From: Arthrospiribacter ruber
Lineage (GTDB): Bacteria > Bacteroidota > Bacteroidia > Cytophagales > Cyclobacteriaceae
Assembly: GCF_019343195.1 (NCBI RefSeq)
Contig: NZ_RPHB01000002.1
Span: 496,001 to 560,000, forward strand
Direction of reading: 5' to 3'
DNA: 64,000 bases
Shown here: positions 55,971 through 62,543 of the stretch, one piece after another
Layout: the number at the start of each line of letters is the position of its first letter
Position numbering within the stretch: the first letter of the stretch is position 1
The notes under the pieces: model-generated
What the model was told of the DNA's origin: nothing
Database searches by the model: none
What the model saw: the letters and a program-made list of their open reading frames with translations, nothing else
Program-made: the position numbers and the translations under genes

Positions 55971-56879
55971 ATGGACAGGGTAATCACTATAATTGTAACA
56001 TATAACGGATCAAAATGGATTCGTAAGTGTCTACAATGTGTATTAAATAACACTACAAAAACAGACATCATGATACTGGACAATAATTCCAGTGACAATA
56101 CACTTGATGTGATTGATCCTTTTCTTGATAAAATCGAACTGATCAAGTTACCTTCTAATCTAGGCTTTGGAAAGGCTAATAACATCGGTATTCAAAAAGC
56201 ATTGAATAAAGGATATTCACATGTTTTTCTTCTTAATCAAGATGCTTATGTACAACAAGATACAATCGCCAAACTATTGGCGACATCTTCCCAAAACCCC
56301 GAATATGGTATTATTAGCCCTCTTCAACTAAAAAATTCCGAAGATGAACTTGATGAGGTTTTCAGCAATCAGGTAAAAAAACATTATCAGCCGGATATTG
56401 ATCAACTTAGAGAGGATTTAAGTAAAAAGAATATTTCAGAGGTTAAAGAAGTCAAGTTTGCAGGTGCTGCTTCTTGGTTTATGACCTCTGAGCTTTTAAA
56501 AAAGGCTGGATTGTTTCACCCCAAATTTTATCATTATGGAGAAGACAATAACCTTGCTGCAAGAGCTCAATACTTTGGTTTTAAAGTCGGGATTCAGGTG
56601 TCCACTTCGATAGTACACGATAGAAAGCCAAGGGTTGCATCAAAATATCTACCAACCAAACTAAGAACCTTTCCCCTCCATTTTTTACTCGATATCAGGA
56701 AGCCTTTTTTAGTTGCCTGGTTAGTAGGCTACTACCAATTGATTCATATCTGGACCAAGCTCCAAAAAATCAGTGGAAAAAAATATGAAAGCCTATTTTT
56801 AGAAACCAAAAATTGGTTCTTTGCCCATGTAAAGGAAGCAAAAATTATTAGAGCCGAACTCAAAGAAGGATATAAATAA
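55971..56879 (+). CDS. Family 2 glycosyltransferase (rhamnosyltransferase-like)
   Basis: 302 residues. N-terminal GT-A fold: VITIIVTYNGSKWIRKCLQ, DIMILDNNSSDNTLDVI and LNQDAYVQQDTI (the metal-binding Asp in the DAY position), then FAGAASWFMTSELLKKAG and HYGEDNNLAARAQYFGF, the acceptor-side motifs. The C-terminal part is basic and amphipathic. Its acceptor is unknown; no other glycan biosynthesis gene lies next to it. Confidence 0.88.
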   Translation: MDRVITIIVTYNGSKWIRKCLQCVLNNTTKTDIMILDNNSSDNTLDVIDPFLDKIELIKLPSNLGFGKANNIGIQKALNKGYSHVFLLNQDAYVQQDTIAKLLATSSQNPEYGIISPLQLKNSEDELDEVFSNQVKKHYQPDIDQLREDLSKKNISEVKEVKFAGAASWFMTSELLKKAGLFHPKFYHYGEDNNLAARAQYFGFKVGIQVSTSIVHDRKPRVASKYLPTKLRTFPLHFLLDIRKPFLVAWLVGYYQLIHIWTKLQKISGKKYESLFLETKNWFFAHVKEAKIIRAELKEGYK

Positions 56880-56994
56880 TTATAATTTTCCCTTAGAATG
56901 TGAGTAAGCACTCAGTTGATCTTTTTATCATTAATTTGCATTGAATGTGAAGTAGTTAAAAAATATTTAACTTTTTTTAGAAAGATGTGCAACC

Positions 56995-57002
56995 TATTTT
57001 TG
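56995..57002 (+). promoter_or_regulatory. Bacteroidota -7 element for the ECF sigma operon
   Basis: TATTTTTG, exact TAnnTTTG, 35 bases before the sigma-factor ATG. The -33 position holds only a T-run. Confidence 0.45.
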
Positions 57003-57037
57003 AAAAGCTGTATCTACCTATTTGAAAGCCAACCAAA

Positions 57038-57607
57038 ATGCTATTTAAGAAAACTTTTACCACAGAAAGAGATTTGCTCAAAGGCTGTCTAAAGGGCGAA
57101 AGAAAAGCCCAACAGCAGCTCTATGAGCAATATTCGGGGAAGTTTCTTGCCATTTGCATCAGGTATGTCAAAGACCGTGACCTTGCGGAAGATGTCATGA
57201 TTGAAGGCTTTATGAAGATCTTTGAAAAACTTACCCAATTTGAGGAAAAAGGAAGCTTTGAAGGATGGATGAAAAGAATCATCGTCACCCAATCCCTGCT
57301 GACCTTGAGAAACAATAAAAACCTCAACATGGAAGTGACAATGGACAGCACACTTCAGGTTTCGGATGCCATATATGAACTCACACATCTCGAAACCAGT
57401 GAACTGCTCGAGCTCATCAAAGAACTTCCAGTGGGATATAGGACGGTATTTAACCTCTACGCTATTGAGGGATACAGTCATGCAGAGATTGCAGATCTTC
57501 TAGGAATTACGGAGTCTACTTCCAAGTCCCAGCTCAATCGAGCAAGAAATGTATTGAAACAAAAAATAGCCGATCAACAAATAAAAGAAAGGAGAATCAA
57601 TGGCTAA
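57038..57607 (+). CDS. ECF-type RNA polymerase sigma factor
   Basis: 189 residues. Region 2 around DRDLAEDVMIEGFMKIFEKL (about 47-66) with SFEGWMKRIIVTQSLL, and region 4 LPVGYRTVFNLYAIEGYSH, then HAEIADLLGITESTSKSQLN, as in extracytoplasmic-function sigma factors. The next gene overlaps its last eight bases and encodes a membrane-anchored protein, likely its regulator. It heads a five-gene operon. Confidence 0.93.
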   Translation: MLFKKTFTTERDLLKGCLKGERKAQQQLYEQYSGKFLAICIRYVKDRDLAEDVMIEGFMKIFEKLTQFEEKGSFEGWMKRIIVTQSLLTLRNNKNLNMEVTMDSTLQVSDAIYELTHLETSELLELIKELPVGYRTVFNLYAIEGYSHAEIADLLGITESTSKSQLNRARNVLKQKIADQQIKERRING

Positions 57608-58352
57608 TAATGAAAAAAACTTTGACCAATTTTTCAAAGAAAAATTGGAAAAACATCAGGAAAAACCATCGGCACTCGCTTGGGAAAGACTGGAAAGTCA
57701 GCTGCCCAAAAAAGAAAAGTCCGGATTTTATCCATTCATGAGCATTGCAGCAGCAATCGTGTTGCTTTTAGCAGCCGGAATAGTCTTGCTCAATTGGTCC
57801 GGTGAATCTCCGGAAACAAAAGACCAGGTAGCCGAACTTCAACCAAACGAATCCAAAGACTCAGGCCATTCTGCTGATACTTCTTTAATGGAAACAGAAG
57901 AAAACACAGGAGTAATTCCTGAGCCAAAAGAGAATAATGGAACAGAGCATAAGCAGGAAAGAAAAACAACCCATCCACAAAAAGGGAATGTTTCTACTCC
58001 TTCCTTTCAAGAACCAAGTTTCGACAAAATGGTAGCAGAAACCAGGAACGGGGAAGACAAGGTCCTTCCGATATCCATAGAAGTGCCCGAAATCAAACTT
58101 CCCGAACCTAAAATCACAGAAACCATTGCCTTGAATACTGCTGTAGAAGAGGAGCCTGTATACAAAGTAACCATCAAATCCAGAGGCTTGAAAGAAGAGG
58201 CTCCTAAACAGGGACTGATAGGGGAGCTGGAAGAAAAAGTAGAAAAAATAGAGGGAATCTGGAACAAACTGGGTCAGGGATTTGCAGACCTGCAGGATGC
58301 AAAAGAAAACCTGTTTGCCAATAACAATCCCCGAAGAGAAAGAAGTAAGTAA
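57600..58352 (+). CDS. Membrane-anchored anti-sigma-like protein
   Basis: 250 residues. Cytosolic N-terminal part (about 1-42, NFDQFFKEKLEKHQEKPSAL, like a sigma-binding segment), one membrane helix (about 45-65, SIAAAIVLLLAAGIVLLNW), and a long Glu/Pro/Lys-rich periplasmic part, ending in a helix (LIGELEEKVEKIEGIWNKLG). No zinc-binding HxxxCxxC is visible, so not a ZAS domain. Anti-sigma role is inferred from the overlap with the sigma gene. Confidence 0.75.
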   Translation: MANNEKNFDQFFKEKLEKHQEKPSALAWERLESQLPKKEKSGFYPFMSIAAAIVLLLAAGIVLLNWSGESPETKDQVAELQPNESKDSGHSADTSLMETEENTGVIPEPKENNGTEHKQERKTTHPQKGNVSTPSFQEPSFDKMVAETRNGEDKVLPISIEVPEIKLPEPKITETIALNTAVEEEPVYKVTIKSRGLKEEAPKQGLIGELEEKVEKIEGIWNKLGQGFADLQDAKENLFANNNPRRERSK

Positions 58353-58376
58353 CCAACTAAAGAAAATAACACACCC

Positions 58377-59405
58377 ATGAAAAAATACATTTTATTGTTT
58401 TGCTTGCTCGGTTTGGTACAGTTTGCATTTGGCAGCTCAAGCGACATGTATCAAGCCCAAAACGACTCTATCATTGTAGAGTTTGGCAAATCCGGCAAGA
58501 TCATACTTGTCATAGACAACAAGGAGGATTTTGAAAGACTCAAAAATATGAATGTCAATCAGATCATCAGAGAACTTGATCTGGAAGTAGATGAGCAGAC
58601 AGGCGAACTGGTAGTAGTAGAAGTGCAGGGCAAAAAAGGAAGCCGTGAAATTGTCCGTGTAAGGGAAGATGGCCCCGAAACAGAAGTTCACATCGGAGGC
58701 ATCAAAATCTATGTGGATGAGTCAGGCAAAGACACCAAGGTAAAAGTAGAAACAGGATCAAGAAGAAGATTAGACCCCCCATTTAGGACATACTTCAACC
58801 TGGATCTGGGTATCAACAATTACTTGTCCGCTGGAGAAACCAGTACAGGCAGCAGCACAGGAGCACCTGCTGTCAAAGGTTGGGGCAGCTGGAATGTAGG
58901 CCTCAACTGGATGGCAAGCCAAAGGCTCAGCAAGGGTTTCCACTGGGATCTGGGCTTGGGAGTACAGTGGTACAATTTCAAGTTTGAAAACAGAGACATT
59001 CAGGCCATCCGTGGTGATGGGGACATTGAGTTTATCCAAAGGACAGATGTCAACGGGTTCAAGAGTAAAATTTCAGCCTCCTACTTGACAGCCATGAGTT
59101 TATTCAAACTGGACTTTGGCCAGATGAATGATCAGGGGAAAAGAGGATTTAGGATTGCAGCAGGCCCTTATGCCGGCTATAGATTGGGAGGAAGAAGCAA
59201 GTATGTATACAGAAGCCTTGAAGGCGGCGGAAGAAGAAAAGATTTTGAGACTGTCGGTACACATCTCAACAACTTCAGATATGGCATCAGGGGTGAGCTC
59301 GGCGTAGGCCGCGTCAACTTCTTTACTACCTATGACCTGAACACGCTTTTCAGAACAGGTTCCCAATACGAACTCAATCCTATTGCATTCGGAATTATTT
59401 TCTAA
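58377..59405 (+). CDS. Outer-membrane beta-barrel protein, copy 1
   Basis: 342 residues with a signal peptide (MKKYILLFCLLGLVQFAFG). An N-terminal region of about 115 residues (IIVEFGKSGKIILVIDNKED, then an acidic DUF-like segment) is absent from the second copy. Residues about 140-342 form a beta-barrel with the motifs WYNFKFENRDIQAIRGD, KISASYLTAMSLF, AAGPYAGYRLGGRSKYVY and HLNNFRYGIRGELGVG. The next gene encodes a clear paralog. Function unknown. Confidence 0.8.
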   Translation: MKKYILLFCLLGLVQFAFGSSSDMYQAQNDSIIVEFGKSGKIILVIDNKEDFERLKNMNVNQIIRELDLEVDEQTGELVVVEVQGKKGSREIVRVREDGPETEVHIGGIKIYVDESGKDTKVKVETGSRRRLDPPFRTYFNLDLGINNYLSAGETSTGSSTGAPAVKGWGSWNVGLNWMASQRLSKGFHWDLGLGVQWYNFKFENRDIQAIRGDGDIEFIQRTDVNGFKSKISASYLTAMSLFKLDFGQMNDQGKRGFRIAAGPYAGYRLGGRSKYVYRSLEGGGRRKDFETVGTHLNNFRYGIRGELGVGRVNFFTTYDLNTLFRTGSQYELNPIAFGIIF

Positions 59406-59429
59406 ACCAACAAACCTAATTCTACGACA

Positions 59430-60254
59430 ATGAAAACGAAACTGATTTTTTTCGCAGTCCTCCTTATGACATCTACCCTGGCCTTTGGTCAGGGAGATAC
59501 AGAGGAAAAAGAACAAGAGGAAACCTCTAAAAAAGCCGTCACGGTATTCTCCATCTTCGACACGAGGATAGAAATTTCTAAAAACAAAGAAGGAAGAAGA
59601 GTTTTCGAATTTTACTCCAGCCCCAAGGTGTACGAGGGTGAAGAATTGGAAAAATACATCAAAAAAGCAAATACCCATAGTACTGATTTGCAATTTGATC
59701 TGGGTATCAACCAGTGGATCGGAAGCTCAGATGCACCGGAAGTCCGTGCTTGGGGAAGCTGGAACCCCGCCATCAACTTTGACTACACTTACAGACCAGG
59801 TAAAAATTTTCGCTTAAAAAGTATGATTGGAGTGAGTTGGTACAATTTTAAGTTTGAGGACAGAAACATTCAGGCCCTTAGAGGTGACGATAGGATTGTA
59901 TTTGAAAACTTCACACCGGGAGGAGGTACCAAATCCAAAATCTCAGCCTCCTACCTCAATGCCGGACTTATTCCGACCTTCACAACCGGAAACGGAAAAA
60001 TCAGAATAGGTGCAGGTCCATACGTCGGCACAAGATTAGGCGGCAGAGGAAAGTTTGTTTACAATAATGATCAGGGCAGAAGAACCAAAGAGTTCCAGAG
60101 AACCAATTTATATGTCAACAACTTCAGGTACGGGGCCAGATTAGAAGTCGGCGTGGCCAACGTGGATCTATTTATGAATTACGATTTGAATGAGATGTTC
60201 CAAACGGACAGGGGACCTCAGGTCAACACCATAAGTTTCGGAATCATACTTTAA
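59430..60254 (+). CDS. Outer-membrane beta-barrel protein, copy 2 (paralog of 58377)
   Basis: 274 residues with signal peptide (MKTKLIFFAVLLMTSTLAFG). Shares with copy 1: WYNFKFEDRNIQALRGD, KISASYLNAGLI, GAGPYVGTRLGGRGKFVYNN, and YVNNFRYGARLEVGVANVDL. It lacks the ~70-residue N-terminal extra region. 24 bases after copy 1, so tandem duplication followed by divergence. Confidence 0.8.
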   Translation: MKTKLIFFAVLLMTSTLAFGQGDTEEKEQEETSKKAVTVFSIFDTRIEISKNKEGRRVFEFYSSPKVYEGEELEKYIKKANTHSTDLQFDLGINQWIGSSDAPEVRAWGSWNPAINFDYTYRPGKNFRLKSMIGVSWYNFKFEDRNIQALRGDDRIVFENFTPGGGTKSKISASYLNAGLIPTFTTGNGKIRIGAGPYVGTRLGGRGKFVYNNDQGRRTKEFQRTNLYVNNFRYGARLEVGVANVDLFMNYDLNEMFQTDRGPQVNTISFGIIL

Positions 60255-60265
60255 AAACTTTAGCT

Positions 60266-61201
60266 ATGAAAAATTTAACAGCACTACCCATTTTATCTCT
60301 GTTCCTTTTTGGAATGGTTTTTACCGCCAAAGCACAAATGAAAACCTTGGTGGATGTAAACAAATCCTACACGGGCATCAACCGGATCGAAGTAAATGGA
60401 GGCGCCTTGGAAATAGAATACGAAGGCAGTCCAAGCTTAGAGGAAATCAATGTAGATGCCTTTTTGGAATCAAACAACCATGAGCAGGACATTATATTTG
60501 TGACTGTAGGAGAAGTGCTTAAGATCTCCCACAAAGTCAACAATTCCAATTCTGGTTGGAGAAATATGAGAACCAAAGGACATATCAAAATCAGGGGTCC
60601 TAGAGATATGGAATTGGAAATGCGAGGTGGCTCAGGCAAAATCCTTGTAGATAATGTTACGGCAGAAAATACAGGTCTGACTGTAGGCTCCGGTACAATT
60701 GTAGCAAGAAATATATCAGGAAACCTGGCAGCTAAGGCTGGATCAGGAAATATCACCCTAAAGAATATTAAAGGAGACGTAGATGGAAGTGTAGGTTCAG
60801 GTAAAACAAAAATTGAAGATGTGATCGGTAATGTCAGCTTTTCTTCCGGTAGCGGAGGTATCAATGCCCAAAATGTGGATGGGTTGATTCATGTAAGCCT
60901 ATCTTCAGGACATGCTAAACTGGAAAACATTGGTGAACTTGGACATCTCAAGCTTTCTTCTGGCAATCTGAACGCAAGCAATGCAGGACTTGGCCCTAAT
61001 ACCAGCCTGAGTGGTTCATCTGGAAATTTCAGGATTCAGACGCCTACCAACCTGAAGGAGTTCAATTTCTATATGAAAGCTACCTCAGGTAATATTACTG
61101 TTGGTAATTCTCGAGGAGGCAGATCTCTGACGCTTGATAATGGTGCTGCACACGACATCAAAGGAAGTATCACCTCGGGAAATATATCTATAGAAAATTG
61201 A
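60266..61201 (+). CDS. DUF4097/GIN-domain secreted protein
   Basis: 311 residues. Signal peptide (MKNLTALPILSLFLFGMVFTAKA), then a right-handed beta-helix-like repeat: GSGKILVDNVTAENTGLTVG, GSGTIVARNISGNLAAKAG, GSGNITLKNIKGDVDGSVG and SSGGINAQNVDGLIHVSLSS, the Gly-Ser-Gly repeated rungs of GIN/DUF4097 proteins. Likely a surface or periplasmic protein. Last gene of the sigma operon, 11 bases after copy 2. Confidence 0.85.
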   Translation: MKNLTALPILSLFLFGMVFTAKAQMKTLVDVNKSYTGINRIEVNGGALEIEYEGSPSLEEINVDAFLESNNHEQDIIFVTVGEVLKISHKVNNSNSGWRNMRTKGHIKIRGPRDMELEMRGGSGKILVDNVTAENTGLTVGSGTIVARNISGNLAAKAGSGNITLKNIKGDVDGSVGSGKTKIEDVIGNVSFSSGSGGINAQNVDGLIHVSLSSGHAKLENIGELGHLKLSSGNLNASNAGLGPNTSLSGSSGNFRIQTPTNLKEFNFYMKATSGNITVGNSRGGRSLTLDNGAAHDIKGSITSGNISIEN

Positions 61202-61355
61202 TTTCTAACCTTTATTAACTTCTGCTTAAAAGGTCAGAAAAGGACTGATAAAACCTGCCAGATCTCTTTCTGGAAAGATGAAGATTACTGCGTGAATGCT
61301 CAAAACCTAACAGATTTAATCTGACCCATTAACTTGAGTAAACAGAACTACTTTG

Positions 61356-61382
61356 AAAAAGCTCTCAGTCAGAGAGCTTTTT
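61356..61382. terminator. Rho-independent terminator of the ECF sigma operon
   Basis: AAAAAGCTCTC pairs perfectly with GAGAGCTTTTT over five bases; works on both strands. Confidence 0.85.
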
Positions 61383-61488
61383 CCATTTTCATTAATCACC
61401 GATTTTTCCCGCTCTTAGATTTTAAGACTTCATTCTGTTAACATTTTCCTAGTTTATTGTTTTATAAGCATCACGAAATCACAATCCT

Positions 61489-62376
61489 ATGACTCCTATC
61501 AAAAAAGAAAATCTGAAACAGGAAATATTTGACCTATATGACCAGTACTGCCACAATGTAATTGACAGACGCAGTTTTATGAGTAAACTCAGCGCATTTG
61601 CTGTTGGGGGATTGACTGTTTCGGCATTGATGAGTTACCTTTTACCCAATTATACAGAGCCCAAAAGATTTGATCTGGATGACCCGAGGGTAGATGCTGA
61701 GTACTTGGAATATGATTCACCAAAAGGAGCCGGAAAAATGAAAGGCCTTCTAAGTAAGCCAAAGGGAAACAAGGGCAAACTTCCTGGAATCATTGTAGTT
61801 CACGAGAATCGTGGTCTCAATCCTTATGTAGAAGACACTGCACATGAAGCTGCTACAGCTGGATTTATTGCTTTTGCCCCGGATGCTTTGACTCCATTTG
61901 GAGGCTACCCAGGCACGGACGATGAAGGCAGGGAAATGCAGGCCAAGCGTGACAGAAATGAGATCCTGGAGGATTTTATCGAAGGATATGAATTGTTGAA
62001 AAACCACCCTGAATGCAATGGAAAAGTGGGTGTGGTAGGGTTCTGTTTTGGCGCCTGGGTGTCCAACATGATGGCCGTAAGACTTCCTGACTTAGGCGCT
62101 TCGGCACCCTTTTACGGAGGTCAGGCACCAGTGGAAGATGTCCCTTCCATCAAGGCTCCATTGCAGTTACATTTTGCGGAATTAGATACAAGAGTCAATG
62201 CCGGATGGCCGGATTATGAAGCGGCTTTAAAAGAGCATGGCAAAGAATATGAGGCGCATTTTTACCCCGAAGTCAATCATGGCTTTCACAACCACTCTAC
62301 CCCAAGGTATGACGAGGAAGCTGCCAACCTGGCCTGGGGAAGGACCATAGATTTTTTTAAAAAGAACCTAAAGTGA
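61489..62376 (+). CDS. Dienelactone hydrolase family protein with Tat-like signal
   Basis: 295 residues. N-terminal twin-arginine-like segment DRRSFMSKLSAFAVGGLTVSAL (only a single Arg pair, parts shown), suggesting export. Alpha/beta-hydrolase of the DLH group: nucleophile VGVVGFCFGAWVSNMMA (Cys, about residue 186), and the late ELDTRVNAGWPDY (acid) and NHGFHN (His), giving the Cys-Asp-His triad. Reaction unknown; no chlorocatechol pathway nearby. Confidence 0.88.
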   Translation: MTPIKKENLKQEIFDLYDQYCHNVIDRRSFMSKLSAFAVGGLTVSALMSYLLPNYTEPKRFDLDDPRVDAEYLEYDSPKGAGKMKGLLSKPKGNKGKLPGIIVVHENRGLNPYVEDTAHEAATAGFIAFAPDALTPFGGYPGTDDEGREMQAKRDRNEILEDFIEGYELLKNHPECNGKVGVVGFCFGAWVSNMMAVRLPDLGASAPFYGGQAPVEDVPSIKAPLQLHFAELDTRVNAGWPDYEAALKEHGKEYEAHFYPEVNHGFHNHSTPRYDEEAANLAWGRTIDFFKKNLK

Positions 62377-62543
62377 AATATGGACCAATAAATAAATGGT
62401 TTGAGTAAAATCGATATGTATGGATATTGCTTCTAAAGCGATGTTTAAATCAAGGTTAAAATGCCTTTTGGTGAGAAAACGGAAAATCAAATATCCCAAT
62501 ATCAATTTAGTATCTTATAATATCTAAAACCTTTAAAACCTTT

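Follow-up and report, generated by a model that had tools for sequence, protein, structure and literature searches.

An extracytoplasmic function (ECF) sigma factor with a membrane anti-sigma factor is reportedly found in Bacteroides fragilis (EcfO/Reo), and to our knowledge the sensing of outer-membrane damage in Bacteroidota is poorly known. The closest described design is that of the dual-membrane-spanning anti-sigma factors (Dma) of Bacteroides, which PMC13088901 describes as one polypeptide with a sigma-binding N-terminus, one transmembrane (TM) segment, a long disordered tether and a barrel end, and as occurring in Bacteroidota only. The present work concerns a five-gene operon of Arthrospiribacter ruber, located in a window of 64,000 nucleotides (contig NZ_RPHB01000002.1, positions 496,001 to 560,000). 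A gene for an ECF sigma factor is followed by genes for a proposed anti-sigma factor (the second protein, or regulator), two barrel proteins and a Toastrack protein (Table 1), with the coordinates and order given exactly as in an earlier, sequence-only reading. The operon is probably an autoregulated envelope-stress system in which the regulator reaches an outer-membrane barrel via its C-terminal helix, a "split Dma" form. The gene order, the promoter, its recurrence before envelope genes, the domain layout and the N-terminal homology to fused Dma-type proteins are computationally supported. We infer binding of the sigma factor by the second protein, recognition of these promoters by this sigma factor, docking, proteolysis and the signal.

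Judged against PMC13088901, the operon resembles Dma in having an ECF sigma factor adjoining a regulator with an N-terminal domain, a single TM segment, a disordered tether and an outer-membrane barrel as end-point. It departs from that account in having its barrel encoded apart from the regulator, by one gene or two, in the conserved helix that closes the regulator and in the addition of a Toastrack protein. The sigma factor expected beside a Dma protein is of the ECF21 group; that of the window, typed as ECF by Pfam and NCBIfam models, adjoins the regulator, with 8 nt shared between the two reading frames. The second protein was not filed as a Dma protein, because it is not one polypeptide with its barrel: in the AlphaFold2 (AF2) model its 250 aa finish with a helix, and the barrel is the next gene. 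It would work like one, and N-terminal homology to the Dma layout was found via 26 fused Cytophagales proteins. No Pfam or NCBIfam family was found for the second protein above cut-off. Zinc-binding anti-sigma (ZAS) factors differ from it by their HxxxCxxC motif, which is absent here, as had been seen from the sequence: Cys is lacking from the second protein altogether, and its four His are scattered. Cys was present in only one of 29 aligned relatives. Signalling of the FecI/FecR/TonB kind also differs, as barrel 1 was modelled as a small barrel and neither FecR nor a TonB-dependent receptor was matched by the operon proteins in Pfam or NCBIfam. The earlier observation that surface barrels stand in place of a TonB receptor was thereby borne out.

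In the AF2 model of the second protein (mean predicted local distance difference test score, pLDDT, 61) two helices (6-18 and 25-34) precede a TM helix (45-66), a disordered tether at about 67-204 and a C-terminal helix (205-241). If extended, this tether, about 140 residues long, could bridge the periplasm. Conservation was found to be highest at the two ends: among 29 sequences the mean column information was 2.83 bits for residues 1-40, 1.46 bits for 67-186 and 3.04 bits for 187-241, and the most conserved decamer was residues 231-240 (3.83 bits). The Glu/Pro/Lys-rich part described by the sequence-only reading is real, and the conserved terminal segment behind it had been overlooked. In a split-type regulator of another genome (L062:7230-8321, G071), and also in L329, the N-terminal motif is seemingly present in two tandem copies ahead of the TM segment.

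Regulated proteolysis of anti-sigma factors is common. The second protein could be an ordinary proteolysed anti-sigma factor of the RseA/sigma-E kind that never contacts the outer membrane. A protease would then respond to unfolded barrels or to another signal in the periplasm, and the barrels would be mere outputs. The single TM segment, the overlap with the sigma gene and the position of a barrel gene behind the promoter fit this explanation, which we consider rather unlikely. It leaves unexplained that the best conservation lies at the far C-terminus, past a variable tether, that one barrel family adjoins in several orders of the class, and that a homologous N-terminal domain is joined to barrel-like ends elsewhere.

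The second protein had relatives in 67 of 98 genomes. With a profile of the first 75 residues, matches were obtained in 88 of the 98, the weak ones including FecR-like and other membrane proteins, and a barrel profile gave matches in 87 at E<=1e-10. For the linkage count, 99 barrel rows were used (98 at E<=1e-40 and the one from G029 at 1.7e-28; G038, with 7.5e-40 and adjoining anti-sigma and barrel genes, was left out) together with N-terminal profile matches to about 1e-9 and a few weaker ones as anti-sigma rows. On the same strand, 93 of the 99 barrel rows lay at most 4 kb downstream of an anti-sigma row, and at least one barrel stood directly behind an anti-sigma-like gene in 74 of the 77 genomes carrying such a barrel. 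A collection scan was seeded with a barrel alignment of closer relatives, one of distant relatives being unusable for this, and the best 80 of 150 confirmed loci were named; they come from Cyclobacteriaceae such as Algoriphagus, Belliella, Echinicola, Cyclobacterium, Indibacter and Mongoliibacter. The full order of sigma factor, anti-sigma factor, barrel 1, barrel 2 and Toastrack was present in 56 of these; barrel 2 was missing from 15, three were cut by the coordinate filter, and in six barrel 2 was in the operon and only the anti-sigma factor was not called by the script.

A draw of 198 genomes from the phylum gave 37, the own genome included, with the barrel at E<=1e-15, and none outside the class of the window at that threshold. 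An N-terminal profile match upstream of the barrel was present in 28 of 30 examined loci (one of them weak, L330), and 24 of the 30 also showed a sigma gene within the flank. Beyond the order of the window the corresponding counts were 18 and 15 of 20 loci. Conserved gene order, which had been proposed as a check, is thus kept far beyond the species, including other orders of the class. In a FastTree tree of 71 sequences the split sigma factors of Cytophagales (n=36) formed one clade without intruders (support 0.91). When eight split sigma factors from other orders were added, the smallest clade enclosed 20 of the 24 fused sigma factors.

A conserved promoter precedes the sigma gene. GCAAC-N18-ATC was found upstream of sigma at exact spacing in 33 of 41 loci, the window and 40 inspected loci (the best second-protein matches and some chosen for long frames), and at any tested spacing in 35. 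Five of the six loci without the motif were of the fused type, and in the sixth (L038) the sigma start had been called too far upstream. The same motif was present before sigma in all 80 named loci, and the operon site was found in 12 of 12 relatives; in the window the -10 element ends 21 nt before the sigma start. The own genome held ten sites for GCAACC-N16-YATCT, compared to two for a reversed control: eight in open frames, one before the operon and one before a unit of a small open reading frame (ORF) and a MOSC gene. One own-genome site, L078, falls within a 651-codon open frame and was counted as coding. The Pararhodonellum genome G049, whose operon is without barrel 2, carries an unlinked barrel-2 gene (E 8e-104) preceded by the same promoter. 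Together with the 80 named loci, this supports the proposal that the regulon includes the operon's own surface proteins.

These counts also bear on whether the sigma pair was placed beside surface-protein genes incidentally. Three genomes (G079, G010 and G086) have no anti-sigma match ahead of the barrel, nor do two phylum-draw loci (L344 and L348), as such an explanation would expect. It is largely contradicted by the linkage in 74 of 77 genomes, the conserved promoter and the unlinked barrel 2 that keeps this promoter, and we regard it as very improbable. Unlinked sigma and barrel genes in most relatives, which would have made the arrangement incidental, were not what was found.

Fused relatives connect the operon to the Dma layout. 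Twenty-six Cytophagales proteins of 410-641 aa (five among the 40 inspected loci and 21 more; 20 further loci had been selected from N-terminal profile matches for long frames) have the same N-terminus, a TM segment at about 39-62 and, in 26 of 26 cases, a sigma gene directly upstream. A profile made from 35 split rows alone recovered all 26 from a pool of 1013 sequences with E-values of 5e-14 to 6e-6, a re-test and not an unbiased recovery, as the 26 had been picked with a profile containing five of them. Alignment of the split and fused N-terminal domains by hhalign gave 99.4%. None of the 26 matched a profile of the split C-terminus. Six of ten Pfam-checked fused proteins matched an outer-membrane barrel family in the C-terminal half (E<=0.001), and two of the fused proteins (L052 and L069) matched PF13568 above cut-off, as does barrel 1. 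Homology of the fused barrels to barrel 1 had been expected; it was partly supported by PF13568 and not shown by hhalign. By layout the fused proteins would be Dma proteins, a placement made against the description of Bacteroides Dma. The own genome also has a fused form, L201 (G000:C17:101229), whose 439-aa product follows a separate sigma gene and has a weak PF13568 match (1.7e-4).

The fused-type sigma factors had been expected to share the split promoter; its motif was present in none of the 26 fused loci. Before some of their sigma genes, beside the fused regulators L052, L070, L180, L182, L183, L189 and L191, GCAAC is combined with GGTCTN or AGTCTT at -10. Because GCAAC is kept and the -10 element is exchanged in some fused loci, the -35 element seems to be shared between the two types, which suggests that the -10 element sets specificity.

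Barrel 1 has a conserved periplasmic segment at about 30-68, and residues 136-341 are read as an 8-stranded barrel (AF2, mean pLDDT 64). Among its Foldseek matches a Legionella Dot/Icm-associated porin came first (E 8e-4), followed by small barrels resembling OmpA, NspA and OmpX; TM-scores were low throughout. Barrel 2 had no barrel match of its own in Pfam, and in the alignment it lacks the periplasmic segment that is conserved in barrel 1; the identity between the two agrees with their earlier description as paralogues. The Toastrack protein is probably exported, because hydropathy showed a signal-peptide-like hydrophobic N-terminus. It had been labelled DUF4097/GIN; the DUF4097 part was correct, and the protein does not belong to the head-GIN family DUF2807. 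Toastrack genes in operons of LiaFSR/PSP context have been proposed, in PMC11237479, to relay membrane signals to transcription, also via an operon-linked sigma factor. The present operon shares the PF13349 domain with these. It differs in that the domain is predicted in that text to be intracellular, whereas the protein of the window has a signal-peptide-like start and no LiaF, PspA or PspC was found by Pfam among the five operon genes. A strong terminator had been predicted after the operon, and a terminator-like hairpin was located there whose stem is the longest among ten such sites in 56000-62500 (6.4 expected).

Table 1. Features of the operon in the window (window coordinates)
Feature	Coordinates	Strand	Evidence
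ECF-type promoter	-35 GCAACC 56989-56994; 15-nt spacer; -10 GTATCTA 57010-57016	+	Conserved motif upstream of sigma
ECF sigma factor, 189 aa	57038..57607	+	Pfam Sigma70_r4_2 5.5e-17, Sigma70_r2 7.4e-11; NCBIfam sigma70-ECF 85 bits
Proposed anti-sigma factor (second protein), 250 aa	57600..58352	+	Conservation, AF2, N-terminus homologous to that of fused Dma-type proteins
Barrel 1, 342 aa, signal-peptide-like N-terminus	58377..59405	+	PF13568 1e-6, alignment, AF2, weak Foldseek matches
Barrel 2, 274 aa	59430..60254	+	41% identity to barrel 1
Toastrack (DUF4097) protein, 311 aa	60266..61201	+	PF13349 9.8e-17
Hairpin resembling an intrinsic terminator, 12-pair stem followed by a T-rich tail	61355..61383	+	Terminator scan

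The promoter was also found before other genes, mostly of envelope type. In 47 named genomes, four of them without a match, GCAACC-N15-GYATCTW gave 96 sites, compared to 10 for the reversed pattern. The sites were sorted partly by hand: 23 lay inside open frames of at least 130 codons and 73 were not classed as coding. The operon itself accounted for 34 sites (23 by sequence, two from the pool of 1013 sequences and nine by coordinates or earlier loci at the same place). A further 23 preceded the gene of a small single-TM protein, 13 of them being flagged by the script and 10 recognised by eye. Six preceded DUF2807 head-GIN genes (two Pfam-checked, 3.6e-47 and 3e-46, and four by likeness), two DUF6600 genes (one checked, 1e-28), two a secreted-looking 268-aa protein (one checked, no family), three ABC transporter genes (MacB/FtsX permease and ATPase, two checked) and two genes for NAD-binding proteins (one checked); one preceded a barrel-2 gene. 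Sites in recN (L095 and L217) and others were set aside as coding, as was the site of L307, flagged by the script as a small protein and reclassed since it spans a 181-codon frame. The head-GIN proteins, all in Algoriphagus genomes (L255, L274, L276, L280, L281 and L286), look secreted, and as their genes stand behind the same promoter, proteins of GIN/Toastrack type recur as outputs. The NAD(P)-binding proteins appear to be of one kind in two genera, Mariniradius (L088) and Pararhodonellum (L310). The pyrimidine of the -10 element was equal between operon and other sites in 22 of 29 cases from 22 genomes (Fisher p 0.009), a value confounded by kinship and not a proof. In Flavobacterium psychrophilum the SM6 ECF promoters similarly precede an ECF/anti-sigma pair and envelope genes; according to PMC9723704 they differ in having a CGT box at -10 and in serving genes of the type IX secretion system, the -10 element here being GYATCTW.

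The small protein has 29-81 aa, with [ED]R-x-[RK]W directly ahead of its single TM segment. A MOSC gene follows it at 25 of 25 sites, namely the 23 above, the site in the own genome and one in G046. No Pfam family was found above cut-off for the two small proteins checked. Because the start lies only 34-37 nt past the first -35 base at 18 of the 25 sites (95-143 nt at five), the message may be nearly leaderless at those 18. The small-protein loci include G000:C7:7626 (L073 and L220), L221, L223, L094, L259, L260, L271, L300, L308, L311, L314 and others.

The following sequence of events is proposed. The very short N-terminal domain of the second protein would keep the ECF sigma factor at the inner membrane, as the gene overlap, the Dma precedent and the homology suggest. 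The protein would cross the inner membrane once, about 140 disordered residues would reach over the periplasm, and the conserved C-terminal helix would dock at the outer membrane. The likeliest site is barrel 1, with its conserved periplasmic segment as the candidate partner. Conservation, linkage and the fused architecture suggest this contact. A barrel that is missing, misassembled or ligand-bound, or an altered spacing of the envelope, would release the tether, upon which the anti-sigma factor would be inactivated, probably by proteolysis, and the sigma factor set free. The free sigma factor would transcribe its own operon, a step supported by the conserved promoter, yielding new barrels (negative feedback) and the exported Toastrack protein. 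It would also drive a small trans-regulon of envelope proteins, for which the promoter sites speak.

Several points weigh against this proposal. Contact between any two of these proteins is a prediction, the AF2 models of the second protein and barrel 1 are of low confidence, and barrel 1 is poorly modelled in its conserved N-terminal part. When a C-terminal profile was built from close relatives, it recovered only two of the 23 distant proteins of the split type at E<0.01; at E<10 it finds 17 of the 23 versus 12 background ORFs, and the regular expression that matches 18 of the 23 C-termini was written after these had been inspected. Four of the ten fused proteins that were Pfam-checked had no barrel match at all, and hhalign of split against fused barrels gave 1.2% and showed no homology, although PF13568 is matched by barrel 1 and two fused proteins; the choice of the 26 and the three genomes with an unlinked barrel also count here. 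The promoter could be used by another ECF sigma factor, and chance sites may be present among the 73 non-coding ones, since the 23 coding sites exceed the 10 of the reversed pattern.

Docking to barrel 1 being a prediction, and hhalign showing no homology between the split and fused barrels, the C-terminal helix might instead bind another periplasmic partner, such as peptidoglycan, an outer-membrane lipoprotein or the Toastrack protein, with barrel 1 as a co-regulated porin without a signalling role. This we judge unlikely, as barrel 1 is the constant neighbour, whereas apart from the window a Toastrack gene was seen only in the 12 closest among the 40 inspected loci.

The split Dma reading can be taken further, to a two-part trans-envelope sigma switch. 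It would consist of a mini sigma-binding domain, a tether of about 140 residues and a docking helix that plugs into a separate barrel made under the control of the same sigma factor, and it would form a homeostatic loop reading the state of the outer membrane. Such a switch would be present in several orders of the class, be sister or ancestral to Dma and have a dedicated regulon that includes the single-TM family of 29-81 aa before the MOSC gene. In this full form the proposal is tentative, and we put it at somewhat less than an even chance. No description of the split form, the promoter or the small protein was found in the open literature searched, in which no search was aimed at the small protein; the founding papers on Dma (PNAS 2024) and EcfO/Reo were outside its scope and might mention the split form.

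The operon is a candidate sensor that is conserved and clear in its architecture, with a predicted docking helix that can be tested. Its promoter motif is precise enough to propose regulon members from sequence in dozens of genomes, and the small membrane protein family is a predicted stress output. The findings suggest a two-gene form of the Dma design, in which the separate barrel and tether would offer a genetic handle that is absent from the fused form.

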